Below the pieces are notes generated by a model that was given only the letters and a program-made list of their open reading frames with translations, made no database searches and was not told where the DNA came from. The position numbers and the translations under genes were made by a program. A DNA stretch of 64,000 nt, taken from NCBI RefSeq assembly GCF_000424005.1, contig NZ_AUJB01000008.1, forward strand, positions 124,001 to 188,000. The letters are read 5' to 3'. This document shows positions 31,648 to 37,782 of the stretch, one piece after another; within the stretch, counting starts at the first letter, position 1; each line of letters begins with the position of its first letter. The stretch comes from Pseudobutyrivibrio ruminis CF1b (GTDB lineage: Bacteria; Bacillota; Clostridia; Lachnospirales; Lachnospiraceae).

Positions 31648-33699
31648 ATGAAAATCAAGAAAATTTCGGTTCGCATTACCATACACATCATTATATGTAC
31701 CACTATTGCCATGGTAGTCATGAGCTTTTTGGCTTCATACAGTTTGGTAAACATAATGAAAAACGAAGCAGCTGTTGAGCTTTCAGGGGTAAGCGAATCA
31801 TCTTCATCTCGCTTGAGTGCCCTTATTCAAAAGGAATATGCTTATCTGGATGGATTTATGGCATCTCAGGATATGAAAGCACTTATAGATAATCCTGATG
31901 ATCCAGATATTCAGGCAGCCGCTCAGGCATATACTCAGTACTATGGAAGTATCATACCTGATATGAAAAGTATGTTTTATGTTGAGTATCAGGGGAAAGT
32001 TTTGACCCATACTCTTCCTGAAATGATAGGATATATGAATAATCCTGACCTTGTGAAAATGATTCAGGGTCTTTACTATAATGACCAAGGCAACACTGTA
32101 TACAATAGTGTTACAGCTGTATCTCCTGCAACTAGTGAGATAAGTATGATTTTTGCAAGATCATCATACAACTCAAATGGTAAGCCTGCAGGTTATGTTT
32201 CGGTGGAAGTGGATAAGACAGAGTTTTACAATCTTTTGGAATCTGCAATTCATATTTGCGAGAATCAGGAGGTTGTTCTTACTGGCGTCAATAATCCAGT
32301 GGTTTATTATTCGACAAATCCAGATGAAATAACCCTTTCCAGTGAGAAGCCAATAATAAATTCTCTTATTGCTGATATTTCAAATGGTGCTGTTGAGAAT
32401 GAAGGATTTATTGATTATATAGATGACGCAACCGGCGAAAAAATGCTGGGATACTATACTTATTTGAGTGACAATGATTGGCTGTTGCTGGTTGGTGCTC
32501 AGGAAAAAGAGCTTTACGGAAATGCATATCATTATTCAAACTTGATAATTATCTATGGCGCAGTTATTACCATACTTATAGCCTTGATTCTGGTATTTAT
32601 CATTAGCAAGTTAGTAAAGCCTATTACAAATATTCAAACTGCCCTTACACGAGTAGCAGCCTTTGATATAACAGATAATAAAGATATTGTTAAATATGAA
32701 AAGCGAGCTGATGAGATAGGAAAACTGGCTGTTGCTACCCGTACTGTAATAATAAGCTTAAAGGGTGCGGTTAGCGTATTTAGAGAATACAATGATATGC
32801 TTGAGAAGGATTCAAAGAATCTTGAAAATGCATCTACAATGCTAAGTGAGGTTACAAATGATAACCAGGGTATTGCAGATTCTTTGGCATATAAAATCAA
32901 TGAGACGAACTCAGCTATTGAGTCCATTCGAAACGAAATTGATAACATATTGGAATTAGTTTCTACTGTAAACGAAAAGGTTGAAACAGGCCAGAATGAC
33001 TCCACTGAGCTTATAGCTTCAGCCACTAAGATGAATGACCAGATTAACACAGAAATCAATAAAAATATGTCAATGCTACAGGAAACTATGGCTAGTATGG
33101 AGACTGCCTTAGATAGTTTAAATGCTGTTGAGCAGATTAATACTTTGGCAGAGGATATTATGTCCATTACTTCTCAGACAAATCTTTTATCTTTGAATGC
33201 CTCTATTGAAGCTGCCAGAGCTGGTGAAGCAGGCAAGGGCTTTGCTGTAGTAGCAGGAGAAATTGGACAATTGGCTGAACAGTCAAAAGAAACAGCCATG
33301 AATATTACAGAGATAGTAGCAGCCAGCAATGAATCTGTTGCCAATGTAAGAAGTCAGGTGTCTTCACTTATAGATTTCATTAAGAATGATGTTATCTCAA
33401 GCTTTGAGATTTTCTCTTCTCAAAGTAAACATTATGATGAGGGTATTTCCACCATTGAACAGTCTGTTTCAGATATAGGAAATGCCATGGAATCTCTTAA
33501 TGAATCAATAAATGAAATAGCAAAACAGATTAAGGCAGTTAATGATGCTTCTGTGGAAAATACTGACGGTGTTTCTAATATTCTGGGCAAAAATGTTCAG
33601 GCTATAGATGTTTCCAAGAACATAGAAGAGATAGCTGAGAATAGTAAGAACAACGCTAACGATTTGAAGTTTGCTATTAATCAGTTCAAGACAGAATAG
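31648..33699 (+). CDS. Methyl-accepting chemotaxis protein 3 (dCache sensor)
   Basis: A 683-residue receptor with TM1 at about 11-32, a dCache-type sensor (about 40-290) that is unlike those of the two preceding receptors, TM2 near 296-318, HAMP and a signalling domain whose tip ([28 protein letters not shown]) is canonical. Outside the tip the coiled coil differs from its neighbours, so it is not part of the recent duplication. TTAGGAG precedes the start 30 bases after gene 2, so it is probably cotranscribed. A strong terminator follows after about 50 bases. Confidence 0.92.
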   Translation: MKIKKISVRITIHIIICTTIAMVVMSFLASYSLVNIMKNEAAVELSGVSESSSSRLSALIQKEYAYLDGFMASQDMKALIDNPDDPDIQAAAQAYTQYYGSIIPDMKSMFYVEYQGKVLTHTLPEMIGYMNNPDLVKMIQGLYYNDQGNTVYNSVTAVSPATSEISMIFARSSYNSNGKPAGYVSVEVDKTEFYNLLESAIHICENQEVVLTGVNNPVVYYSTNPDEITLSSEKPIINSLIADISNGAVENEGFIDYIDDATGEKMLGYYTYLSDNDWLLLVGAQEKELYGNAYHYSNLIIIYGAVITILIALILVFIISKLVKPITNIQTALTRVAAFDITDNKDIVKYEKRADEIGKLAVATRTVIISLKGAVSVFREYNDMLEKDSKNLENASTMLSEVTNDNQGIADSLAYKINETNSAIESIRNEIDNILELVSTVNEKVETGQNDSTELIASATKMNDQINTEINKNMSMLQETMASMETALDSLNAVEQINTLAEDIMSITSQTNLLSLNASIEAARAGEAGKGFAVVAGEIGQLAEQSKETAMNITEIVAASNESVANVRSQVSSLIDFIKNDVISSFEIFSSQSKHYDEGISTIEQSVSDIGNAMESLNESINEIAKQIKAVNDASVENTDGVSNILGKNVQAIDVSKNIEEIAENSKNNANDLKFAINQFKTE

Positions 33700-35100: not shown

Positions 35101-35535
35101 ATGGCATTATATAGCGAAAAGGTAATGGATCACTTTAGAAACCCAAGAAACGTAGGGGTTATCGAGAACGCAGATGGTGTTGGTGAGGTAGGTAACCCAG
35201 TCTGTGGTGACATCATGAAAATTTATCTTAAGATTAATGATGAACAGGTAATCGAGGATGTTAAGTTTGAGACATTTGGATGCGGATCAGCCATCGCATC
35301 ATCTTCAATGGCAACAGAGCTCATTATGGGTAAGCCACTATCAGAAGCTCTTCAGCTTACAAACAAGGCAGTAACAGAAGCCCTTGACGGACTTCCAGCC
35401 CACAAGCTCCATTGCTCAGTACTTGCTGAGGAGGCTATCAAGTCTGCAGTAAGAGACTACTACGACAAGAACGGAATCGAATACGACCCTAAGGATTTCC
35501 CAGACCCTGAGGTTGAGGCGTGTCATATGCACTAA
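35101..35535 (+). CDS. iscU: Fe-S cluster assembly scaffold IscU/NifU-like
   Basis: A 144-residue scaffold with the three conserved cysteines C35 (PVCGD), C61 (FGCGSAIA) and C105 (LHCSVLA) that hold the nascent [2Fe-2S] cluster. The conserved Asp after C35 is present. It matches the N-terminal scaffold domain of NifU and full-length IscU, with a short C-terminal extension ending in CHMH. It follows iscS in the same operon behind a GGAGG site. A very structured GC-rich region follows directly. Confidence 0.94.
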   Translation: MALYSEKVMDHFRNPRNVGVIENADGVGEVGNPVCGDIMKIYLKINDEQVIEDVKFETFGCGSAIASSSMATELIMGKPLSEALQLTNKAVTEALDGLPAHKLHCSVLAEEAIKSAVRDYYDKNGIEYDPKDFPDPEVEACHMH

Positions 35536-35554: not shown

Positions 35555-35657
35555 TTGCTAGGCTCCAGTGGAGCCTGTTTAGCAACGACCGAGCCGGAAG
35601 GCGAGACAAGGTGGCCGAAGGCCGGATGAGGTGTCTCATCTGGTCTTTTTTCTTTTT
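35555..35657 (+). terminator. Complex GC-rich hairpin region and terminator after iscU
   Basis: TTGCTAGGCTCC (35555-35566) pairs with GGAGCC (35570-35575) and TAGCAA (35580-35585). A second structure has GAGACA (35603-35608) with TGTCTC (35633-35638) around a GGCCGAAGGCC hairpin, closed by GACC/GGTC and followed by TTTTTTCTTTTT. The base composition is well above that of neighbouring DNA, so this may be part of a repeated element as well as the operon terminator. Confidence 0.6.
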
Positions 35658-35661
35658 CCCT

Positions 35662-35767
35662 CCTGCTTGACACATCATATCAGCCCAGTCTCGGTGTCAA
35701 TGATTCCCTTTGGCGCTTCGCGTCATTGACACCTCGCCTTTAGGCTGATATTTGGTAATCAAGCAGG
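35662..35767. repeat. 106-bp three-tier inverted repeat
   Basis: Three nested perfect arms share one centre: CCTGCTTGA 35662-35670 with TCAAGCAGG 35759-35767; ATATCAGCC 35677-35685 with GGCTGATAT 35743-35751; GGTGTCAATGA 35693-35703 with TCATTGACACC 35723-35733. Internal loops lie between tiers. There is no coding capacity. It could be a structured RNA, a MITE-like remnant or a cruciform; the sequence does not decide. Confidence 0.8.
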
Positions 35768-35805
35768 GGTGAAAATGGGGCTGTGGCGGAGCCGCAAAGC
35801 CACTT

Positions 35806-35844
35806 ATGCATCCCGATGGTATAAAAGTGGCATTTGGGATGCAT
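35806..35844. repeat. 9-bp inverted repeat next to the TACGGGT array
   Basis: ATGCATCCC (35806-35814) and GGGATGCAT (35836-35844) are exact reverse complements with a 21-base spacer. It ends 4 bases before the first array site. Confidence 0.6.
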
Positions 35845-35847
35845 TTA

Positions 35848-36156
35848 TACGGGTGTGATATTGGAGAGTATCTGTATGACCCGTAAATTAAAAGTATGGT
35901 TCAAACCCTTTACGGGTAAAATGGGAAGATTCTTTGGATTTACCCGTAAAAAATTGTCACTTTTAAAGATATTTACGGGCGAGATTAGGAAGCACACTAA
36001 TCTACCCGTAATCAATATTCACAATTGTTAAAATATGGGGAAATACTTTCAGATTTTACGGGTGTATGGAAGGAAGCTACAGGGTTACCCGTAAGTTTCA
36101 AAAACCAATTTTTTTTCTTACGGGTACAATTGCATTTCTTATACCTAGTACCCGTA
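35848..36156. repeat. Ten-site alternating TACGGGT/ACCCGTA array with helical spacing
   Basis: The 7-mer occurs ten times with centres at 35851, 35882, 35914, 35945, 35977, 36007, 36060, 36090, 36122 and 36153. Sites 1, 3, 5, 7 and 9 read TACGGGT (site 5 ends in C) and sites 2, 4, 6, 8 and 10 read ACCCGTA, without exception. Steps are 31, 32, 31, 32, 30, 53, 30, 32 and 31 bp. These are close to three helical turns, with one step of five turns, so all sites face the same side. Most sites have flanking TTT/AAA. The DNA between sites is not repeated. Protein-binding array or switchable RNA hairpins are both possible. Confidence 0.85.
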
Positions 36157-36165
36157 AATAGAACC

Positions 36166-36230
36166 TGTGGCTTGCCACAATCACAGTGAAACTAAGGATA
36201 GCCTTAGCTATCAATTCCCTTGATAGCCAG
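36166..36230. repeat. Small hairpins between the array and the metY promoter
   Basis: TGTGGC/GCCACA (36166-36179) forms a 6-bp hairpin. GATAGC (36197-36202) with GCTATC (36207-36212), and a further GATAGC..GCTAT near 36222, form overlapping short hairpins. Function unknown. Confidence 0.45.
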
Positions 36231-36258
36231 CTATAATTTTTACCCATATTAAAACCTA

Positions 36259-36330: not shown

Positions 36331-36417
36331 ATGAAAAATCTTTTAATTTCTTTTGTAAGACACAACTGTAAAAACGGCCGAATGCAGGGCTCAAGAGATT
36401 ATTGTTACTGTTGTTAA
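36331..36417 (+). CDS. Cysteine-codon leader peptide of the metY-cysK operon
   Basis: A 28-codon ORF with AGGGTAGG about 8 bases before its ATG. It is basic in the middle (VRHNCKNGRMQGSRD) and ends D-Y-C-Y-C-C-stop, so three of its last four codons are Cys (four Cys in all). It lies between the operon promoter and the metY ribosome site, which starts 17 bases after its stop. Such leaders sense charged tRNA-Cys through ribosome stalling. No terminator hairpin fits in the short gap, so control of metY translation by the stalled ribosome is more likely than transcription attenuation. Function inferred. Confidence 0.75.
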   Translation: MKNLLISFVRHNCKNGRMQGSRDYCYCC

Positions 36418-36450: not shown

Positions 36451-37782
36451 ATGAGTAATTATAGATTCGAGACATTAGCACTTCACGTAGGACAGGAAAA
36501 CCCAGATCCAGCATCTGATGCAAGAGCAGTACCTATTTATCAGACAACATCTTATGTGTTCAGAGATTCACAGCATGCAGCAGACAGATTTGGTCTTGCA
36601 GATGCAGGTAACATTTACGGAAGACTTACAAACTCAACACAGGGAGTTTTAGAGCAGAGAGTAGCAGCTATTGAAGGCGGAGCAGCAGCCCTTGCAGTTG
36701 CATCAGGAGCAGCAGCAATCACATACACAATTGAGGCTCTTGCAGCAGGCGGCGGACACATAGTAGCACAGAAGACAATCTACGGCGGAAGCTACAACTT
36801 ACTTGCTCACACACTTCCACAGTACGGCGTAACAGCTACATTCGTAGATGCTCACAACCTTAAAGAGGTTGAGGATGCAATTAAGGACGATACAAAGGCA
36901 ATCTACATTGAGACACTTGGAAATCCAAATTCAGATATTCCAGATATTGATGCACTTGCAGAGATTGCTCACAGACACGATCTTCCACTTGTAGTTGATA
37001 ACACATTTGGTGCAGCTTACTGGGTACGTCCAATCGAGCATGGCGCAGACATAGTAGTTCATTCAGCAACAAAGTTCTTCGGTGGACACGGAACAACACT
37101 TGGTGGTGTTATCGTAGAGGCAGGCACATATGACTGGAAGAAGAGTGGCAAGTTCCCTGCAATTGCAGAGCCAAATCCAAGCTACCACGGAATCTCATTT
37201 GCAGATGCTACTGCACCTGCTGCATTCGTTACATACATTAGAGCAATCCTTCTTCGCGACACAGGAGCTACAATCTCACCATTCAATGCATTCCTTCTTT
37301 TGCAGGGAATTGAGACATTACCACTTCGCTTAGATAGACATGCAGAGAATACAACAAAGGTTGTAGAGTTCCTTAAGAATCATCCAAAGGTTGCAAAGGT
37401 AAATCATCCTTCACTTGAGGATCATCCAGATCACGAGTTATATAAGAAGTATTTCCCTAAGAATGGCGGAAGCATCTTCACATTTGAAATCAAGGGCGGC
37501 AAGGAAGCAGCTTACAAGTTCATCGACAATCTTCAGATTTTCTCAATCCTTGCAAATGTAGCTGATGTTAAGAGCTTAGTAATTCACCCAGCGACAACAA
37601 CACATTCCCAGCTTACAGAAGAGGAGCTTCTTGACCAGGGAATCACACAGTCTACAATCAGACTTTCAATTGGTACAGAGCACATTGATGACATCATTGA
37701 AGATCTTGAAAAGGGCTTTGCAGCAATTGACGGAATTCAGGGTTCAGTTAATGAATCAAACGTTGATATAAAGGCAGTTTAA
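36451..37782 (+). CDS. metY: O-acetylhomoserine sulfhydrylase (MetY)
   Basis: A 443-residue PLP enzyme of the Cys/Met metabolism family that makes homocysteine from O-acetylhomoserine and sulfide. The N-terminal FETLALHVGQE..PDPASDARAVPIYQTTSY and the length (about 430) are typical of MetY rather than MetB/MetC. The PLP lysine is K208 in HSATKFFGGHG. AAAGGAG lies 9 bases before the ATG. It is the first enzyme gene after the cysteine-rich leader peptide and is cotranscribed with cysK (41-base gap). Confidence 0.94.
   Translation: MSNYRFETLALHVGQENPDPASDARAVPIYQTTSYVFRDSQHAADRFGLADAGNIYGRLTNSTQGVLEQRVAAIEGGAAALAVASGAAAITYTIEALAAGGGHIVAQKTIYGGSYNLLAHTLPQYGVTATFVDAHNLKEVEDAIKDDTKAIYIETLGNPNSDIPDIDALAEIAHRHDLPLVVDNTFGAAYWVRPIEHGADIVVHSATKFFGGHGTTLGGVIVEAGTYDWKKSGKFPAIAEPNPSYHGISFADATAPAAFVTYIRAILLRDTGATISPFNAFLLLQGIETLPLRLDRHAENTTKVVEFLKNHPKVAKVNHPSLEDHPDHELYKKYFPKNGGSIFTFEIKGGKEAAYKFIDNLQIFSILANVADVKSLVIHPATTTHSQLTEEELLDQGITQSTIRLSIGTEHIDDIIEDLEKGFAAIDGIQGSVNESNVDIKAV

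Follow-up and report, generated by a model that had tools for sequence, protein, structure and literature searches.

MITEs are short, gene-less elements with inverted terminal repeats that are dispersed between genes. For REPIN-RAYT systems, two published accounts propose that recognition of the repeats keeps the elements going (PMC3116915, PMC8049555); RAYT is an IS200/IS605-like HUH Y1 tyrosine transposase, and REPs are conserved palindromic 16-mers arranged in inverted doublets. TIGR-Tas is described as RNA-guided, with a Nop domain, dual repeats of 8-12 nt, 9-nt spacers and 36-nt RNAs (PMC12045711). As in REPIN-RAYT, the system analysed here has a nuclease-type gene fixed in place with its own repeat class adjacent (70 of 94 loci) and inverted-repeat elements of that class, without a gene, scattered through intergenic DNA; repeats and protein diversify together, and repeats tend to be more numerous in the presence of the gene. 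It departs from REPIN-RAYT in its protein, which is PD-(D/E)XK-like, in its sites, which are 7-9-mers with free spacers and helical phasing, and in its arrays, which reach about 24 sites and often cover the promoter region of the gene itself. Like those of TIGR-Tas, the arrays are associated with a nuclease, and their repeats vary from locus to locus but not within one; the TACGGGT pairs here, however, have gaps of 22-24 nt. Pfam gave no match above the cut-off, and no Nop protein appeared among the best 50 of 302 Foldseek matches. Several of the elements resemble MITEs in having inverted terminal repeats, the copy described first below retaining a possible remnant only; unlike in MITEs, the internal array appears to be the recognised feature. 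No target-site duplication was seen at the ends of eight elements. The C-terminal nuclease domain is homologous to that of PDC-S68 (PADLOC), the models of which are about 1200 aa long, whereas the protein here has 270 aa and an N-terminal part of its own. Among the matches listed from the open-access literature, within the text available for them, no such array-nuclease system is described; the best reading would be a REPIN-RAYT-like logic built from unrelated parts. Our preferred explanation, which we regard as probable, is that the array consists of double-stranded DNA sites of an autorepressing nuclease family, with copies residing in gene-less elements that the nuclease mobilises.

The array lies at positions 35848-36156 of the window (the whole 64-kb stretch of DNA that was analysed), within a 915-bp gap between a gene that we take to be iscU (35101-35535), a name carried over from the initial annotation, and a metY-like gene (36451-37782), the product of which is a Cys/Met-metabolism PLP enzyme according to Pfam. 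The initial annotation described ten copies of one 7-mer in alternating orientation; the alternation is indeed strict at every step, but only nine copies are exact TACGGGT, the tenth being TACGGGC. The steps from site to site are 31, 32, 31, 32, 30, 53, 30, 32 and 31 bp. Two further features had escaped the initial annotation, namely a pair of sites of a second motif, ATGCATCCC/GGGATGCAT (35806-35844), which directly abuts the array, and a long palindrome (fold z of -6.55) to the left of it. The features are as follows:

35646..35795, strand +: left flank of the element, a long imperfect palindrome (terminal repeat) with a CTGTGGC..GCCAC stem
35806..35814, strand -: ATGCATCCC site, second motif (GGGATGCAT family)
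35836..35844, strand +: GGGATGCAT site, paired in inverted orientation with 35806-35814 at a distance of 30 bp
35848..36156, no strand assigned: alternating ten-site TACGGGT array
35848..35854, strand +: array site 1, TACGGGT
35879..35885, strand -: array site 2
35911..35917, strand +: array site 3
35942..35948, strand -: array site 4
35974..35980, strand +: array site 5, TACGGGC, one mismatch
36004..36010, strand -: array site 6
36057..36063, strand +: array site 7
36087..36093, strand -: array site 8
36119..36125, strand +: array site 9
36150..36156, strand -: array site 10
36165..36186, strand -: possible remnant of a right terminal repeat (CTGTGGC TTGCCAC), judged by eye against the right end of element L187 of genome G019

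Exact TACGGGT occurs 10 times in the 64 kb, compared with a mean of 1.65 in shuffled sequences (at least 10 in 0 of 100 shuffles), and one of these copies, at 32737, lies outside the array. A sliding scan of the window for alternating 7-mers (400-bp windows, score of at least 5) revealed no second array. In the genome as a whole, TTTACGGGT is as frequent as its reversed control word (n = 27 for both) and is hence not over-represented. The initial annotation had considered that the 7-mer might turn out to be a common genome-wide word with random spacing, which is not what we observed, 22 of the 27 copies being clustered within five arrays. Together, the five arrays of this 3.27-Mb genome (G000), located in the window and at C1:570.6 kb, C6:61.1 kb, C7:56.8 kb and C7:94.1 kb, contain 18 exact TACGGGT pairs; steps within pairs are 30-32 bp, and the other steps are 21, 31, 41, 52, 63, 93 and 125 bp, that of 93 bp separating two sites of the same orientation. 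The possibility of a sulfur-gene regulon was rejected, the other four arrays adjoining an integrase, sugar-transport genes, a kinase/acetyltransferase gene and a Big_2 protein, with no common theme seen. When 26 metY loci were compared, with up to about 1.5 kb of flank per locus, iscU adjoined metY only in this genome and in G021, which has no array there, and no clean empty site for the array was found among them.

At least one exact TACGGGT pair is present in 7 of 29 genomes of the genus, this genome included. A search for a three-site pattern in 84,980 genomes of named species yielded 22 stretches, with Lachnospiraceae and Clostridiales titles, several of them from rumen or gut, one from Butyrivibrio and one from a Treponema metagenome bin; 20 of the 22 are clusters of at least 4 and up to 25 sites (one mismatch allowed), mostly with a period of 62-63 bp. 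The array in the Treponema bin (L047:197-552) reflects either horizontal transfer or a binning error. Carriage by phages was considered and dismissed: in two viral contigs that fit the three-site pattern, the sites are arranged differently and fall within an open frame, and these contigs were judged unrelated; scanning viral contigs for the protein family described below yielded 30 pattern matches and no relative. The array at G000:C1:570650-570844 (L005:6651-6845) is flanked by genes for a tyrosine integrase and a SAP-domain protein, and G019 has an identical pair; from this integrase-adjacent position, arrays may ride on mobile islands.

Comparison of the open frames adjoining 37 array loci revealed that one protein family recurs most widely, beside 8 of them. 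In G000, the predicted start of a gene of this family (L007:5944-6765; G000:C7:55946-56764) is a few bases from the array at C7:56.8 kb; no member was found within the 64-kb window. The proteins, of approximately 265-275 aa, gave no match above the cut-off in Pfam, transposase models included, or in NCBIfam, only weak matches in PHROGs and no sequence match among solved structures. Their C-terminal half, however, matches HEAT_CxxC_PDDEXK and the end of PDC-S68 (best E values of 8e-29 to 8e-26 for seven proteins), the latter match covering the model only from about position 1074 onwards. A structure model built from five sequences, of moderate quality (pLDDT 75.9, pTM 0.45), begins with a helix followed by three strands and a long helix, which a linker of low prediction quality connects to an alpha-beta domain. 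The best Foldseek matches of this domain are PD-(D/E)XK endonucleases, for example Bax1 (E value of 4.7e-3, probability of 1.00), none of the best 50 of 302 reaching an E value of 0.001. Eight residues, E162, E179, D193, E208, H209, G211, Y218 and E245, are invariant in all 119 aligned proteins of at least 240 aa (shorter ones were dropped); E162, D193 and E208 form the acidic core expected of PD-(D/E)XK enzymes, in agreement with the modelled alpha-beta fold. In our reading of the alignment, histidine would replace the usual motif lysine (E208-H209). With moderate confidence, we thus assign the C-terminal half as a putative PD-(D/E)XK-type nuclease domain.

Matches to the family are present in 28 of 29 genomes of the genus, with up to 11 in each, some partial or broken, and in 110 of 299 genomes of the same taxonomic family (E value of 0.001 or better, some weak). 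In a phylum sample of 398 genomes, 22 match: five, from the same taxonomic family, are full-length, and of the remaining 17, 16 match with the C-terminal part only and one weakly with the N-terminal part. The complete two-domain protein is confined to Lachnospiraceae in this sample.

To call arrays at the nuclease genes, we compared the highest-scoring 7-mer, counted on both strands, in the 600 bp to either side (score of at least 5) with 40 dinucleotide-resampled nulls at 95 loci, 90 from the genus, the 29 sampled genomes of which include incomplete ones, and 5 from stretches of the species collection. Arrays were called upstream of the gene at 70 of 94 loci (0 of 40 nulls) and downstream at 7 of 93, leaving 24 of the 94 without an upstream array at this threshold. 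In a hold-out set from other genera (28 loci, the best match of each genome, 26 of them with sufficient upstream DNA), arrays were found upstream at 15 of 26 loci, with 11 lacking one, and downstream at 3 of 27. The repeated word depends on the locus: besides TACGGGT, we found GGGATGCAT, TACGGTCA, TACGTGGA, TACGTCTA, TACGGAATA, TACAGTG, TACTACCT, TACTATCT, TACTGCC, GACACGC and others, many of which have TAC at the outer end in common, and at L036 a second paralog has a separate TACGCGC array. Arrays at nuclease genes end 2-359 bp before the predicted start codon, and most of the paralogs examined would, most likely, repress their own gene through an array over or adjoining the promoter region.

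Neighbourhoods recur at about 36 of the 95 loci. Thirteen loci have a common upstream gene, a guaA-like synthase, and carry arrays of TACGGGT, GGGATGCAT, TACAGTT, ATACAGTG or TACGGAATA; a comEC-like gene adjoins another 13 loci and a methyltransferase-like gene a further 10, with several words in each of these groups too (these gene names are our presumption, from reading some of the sequences). Since the same neighbours are accompanied by different words, the gene remains in place there while its word changes, and a mobile nuclease gene is disfavoured where identical neighbours recur.

The words follow the phylogeny of the nuclease. On a FastTree tree of 91 proteins, the 38 words of 76 rows require 38 changes, compared with a mean of 63.4, and never fewer than 59, in 200 shuffles of the labels; the words were assigned by hand, 15 rows without a usable word were excluded, and those of L073, L098 and L107 are below the array threshold. 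Because close relatives inherit their upstream DNA, this fit reflects linkage rather than many independent events. We then compared alignment columns between 58 same-word and 524 different-word pairs of proteins with 45-75% identity. The columns that best follow the word are 38, 89, 36, 41, 42, 43, 58, 65, 61, 1, 7, 156, 72, 111 and 68, 10 of the 15 falling within 36-72, a range that takes in the strands and the first part of the long helix. Same-word pairs are more alike on average (0.67 versus 0.53), so that the evidence lies in the contrast among regions rather than in its absolute size: 0.34 at columns 31-45, 0.30 at 61-75 and 0.04-0.20 elsewhere. We infer from this distribution that the N-terminal part reads the DNA word; the helix, beta-sheet and long helix would bind the 7-mer, with the C-terminal domain acting as the PD-(D/E)XK-type nuclease. 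The promoter-like position of the arrays at nuclease genes, with the last site 2-359 bp from the start codon, would also suit operators of another regulator, the nuclease gene being one of its targets. We consider this improbable, given that the motif tracks the nuclease tree by clade and that the specificity-like columns are mostly N-terminal. Furthermore, the two orphan arrays checked for position are not over promoters: that of the window ends approximately 100 bp short of the likely metY promoter (by eye), and that of L008 sits between convergent gene ends.

The spacing of the sites points to recognition on double-stranded DNA. Distances between sites of the same orientation in 70 arrays (n = 451, with each distance entered once per locus) are most strongly periodic at 10.4-10.45 bp (R = 0.667). 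When multiples of the locus minimum are set aside, the other 168 distances peak at 10.45 bp (R = 0.63), whereas R did not exceed 0.16 in 200 draws of random distances; the hold-out loci (76 distances) peak at 10.65 bp (R = 0.525). Sites are also far better conserved than spacers. In 16 pairs of related arrays with 80-97% identity (pairs above 97% or with fewer than 200 aligned bases were excluded), we counted 6 differences in 1015 site positions and 774 in 7338 spacer positions; defining the sites on a single sequence would by itself reduce the site count roughly by half, and the pairs are not all independent. The two orphan pairs among the 16 behave likewise, with 1 of 56 and 0 of 35 differences in sites and 68 of 301 and 22 of 220 in spacers. 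Pairs of lower identity agree, with a site mismatch of up to 0.14, although there the sites guide the alignment. The initial annotation had offered two interpretations, a protein-binding array and an RNA with alternative hairpins, and had named relatives that keep the spacing but not the sites as a refuting outcome; related arrays in fact retain their sites, which together with the periodicity and the diverged spacers favours the protein-binding branch.

The RNA branch, in which a transcribed repeat RNA would form a stem-loop at each pair and could adopt alternative registers, fared differently. The array region does fold better than shuffled sequences (z of -4.8 and -5.1), as any inverted repeat would, but similarly on both strands. 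Both sites are exact in 286 of 429 inverted pairs, a single site is changed in 118, and of the 25 pairs in which both are changed, only 3 have complementary changes; Rfam gave no match, and sites spaced by whole helical turns do not suit such an RNA. These patterns make the RNA interpretation very improbable, leaving the initial interpretation partly supported, and suggest that the sites act as double-stranded DNA sites, RNA folding being unsupported. An even more doubtful alternative, to which we attach hardly any credence, is a CRISPR- or TIGR-like guide-RNA array with the spacers as guides: short repeats, variable spacers and an adjacent nuclease gene recall such arrays, but spacer lengths rise by helical turns, and the spacers drift between species or are tandem copies. 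In addition, the TIGR unit comprises two repeats, 9-nt spacers and a Nop protein (PMC12045711). On double-stranded DNA, a dimer, or two dimers, of the nuclease would probably bridge each inverted pair of the form TACnnnn-N22-24-nnnnGTA, with the two sites three helical turns apart on one face of the helix, and additional pairs would join at whole helical turns.

Arrays also occur away from nuclease genes. Pairs of GGGATGCAT were found in 18 of 29 genomes of the genus and pairs of TACTAYCT in 15 of 29, with up to 56 per genome. TACTAYCT arrays are present in 9 of 9 genomes with the cognate nuclease and in 6 of 20 in which it is missing or unsampled (p = 0.0005), and TACGGGT arrays in 3 of 3 with the cognate nuclease versus 4 of 26 others (p = 0.0096); for GGGATGCAT, the difference (9 of 11 versus 9 of 18 without one found) is not significant (p = 0.09). 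The palindrome of the window has 36 matches in 9 of 29 genomes of the genus. Thirty palindrome loci were looked at, two of them being second views of one element, and arrays, with differing words, lie on the inner side of the palindrome in 19 of 29 copies and on the outer side in 0 of 29. An inverted second palindrome closes the far end in several elements (L249, L251, L253, L265 and L267). In G019, a genome with a GGGATGCAT nuclease, the copy of the window element has four exact GGGATGCAT pairs; the copy in the window has TACGGGT pairs, matching a nuclease locus of G000, and a single GGGATGCAT pair as a leftover. Aligned with the window element, the C6 array of G000 is a diverged copy in which the order is preserved.

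Across the 27 palindrome elements compared with nuclease loci of their own genome (one additional element was too short and left out), 14 have at least 3 sites in common with such a locus, compared with 5.9 expected (0 of 5000 permutations); as 5 of the 14 come from G027 and 4 from G000, they are not independent and the permutation overstates the certainty, and the assignments of L252 and L269 are based on words that are not clearly array words. The other 13 elements match no sampled nuclease of their own genome. They include three from G012, an 81% complete draft with one nuclease locus, and the GACACGC elements of G003, which have no matching gene among the seven sampled there. In G004:C1, two places (L223:3670-3943 and L224:3572-3845) contain the same 274-bp array unit, 96% identical and with unrelated flanks. 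This is a recent copy, and the only clean case found of a recent array copy at a second site; in a search for the corresponding empty site, the left junction alone was comparable (with G013).

That orphan arrays lie off promoters and that their words often go with a nuclease would be expected if recognition sustains the element, as for REPINs and RAYTs. We accordingly propose, within the preferred explanation, that the orphan array of the window forms the centre of what looks like a passenger-type element, dispersed and gene-less, which has palindromic ends and carries sites for a resident nuclease, that the nuclease could act on such elements in trans, cutting and repair leading to copying and spread, and that the elements would track changes in nuclease specificity. 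A more detailed version, the odds of which we put a little below even, holds that this is a new kind of intragenomic genetic system, in which several PD-(D/E)XK nucleases per genome, each with a short word of its own recognised by an N-terminal sheet, drive populations of phased arrays that lack the gene, and that a switch of the word by a resident nuclease in place, as at the guaA-like locus, is followed by a rewriting of both its own and the dispersed arrays, with old words left as fossils such as the GGGATGCAT pair. The main rival to mobilisation is sequestration of a defence nuclease, in which the same partner binds the sites and orphan arrays serve as host sinks or anchors that restrain an antiphage nuclease until infection, with no mobilisation. 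The match of the C-terminal domain to the candidate defence proteins PDC-S68, the recurrence of the nuclease genes at the same positions, the location of the examined orphan arrays outside promoters and the retention of sites in the two orphan pairs compared would all fit a sink, but shared palindromic ends at many positions and an array copied elsewhere are needless for a pure one, and we hold it to be unlikely.

An odd repeat is now tied to an unnamed nuclease family, which provides dozens of natural pairs of protein and DNA word. Such pairs allow the study of specificity change in a DNA-reading domain and of the joint rewriting of a ten-site array and its protein. They also bear on whether non-HUH nucleases sustain dispersed bacterial repeats, and the system may account for unassigned intergenic repeats of gut and rumen Lachnospiraceae.

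Several minor observations concern individual loci. The 274-bp unit of G004 has AAGCATT/AATGCTT close to its ends. The element at L253:1501-2483 (G002:C15), of about 1 kb, has full palindromic ends and an array that passes from GACACGC to GACACGAA from end to end, as if a change of word were under way. An orphan GGGATGCAT array is seemingly shortened in G001, with loss between ATGCATCC sites of the same orientation (L175 compared with L188, by eye). At L224:3119-4415 and L237-L244, a DUF3784 gene is followed by a sequence that differs in each genome compared, perhaps marking a hot spot of accessory genes. Downstream of the array in the window, an inverted repeat (TAGCTATC..GATAGCCAGCTATA, 36200-36245) is located directly 5' of the likely metY promoter and is similar in relatives (by eye). 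A 28-codon leader frame 5' of metY (36331-36417) has a Cys-rich end (YCYCC, by eye) and looks like a cysteine-sensing attenuator; in several relatives, metY is preceded by different leaders, which by eye also have Cys-rich ends.
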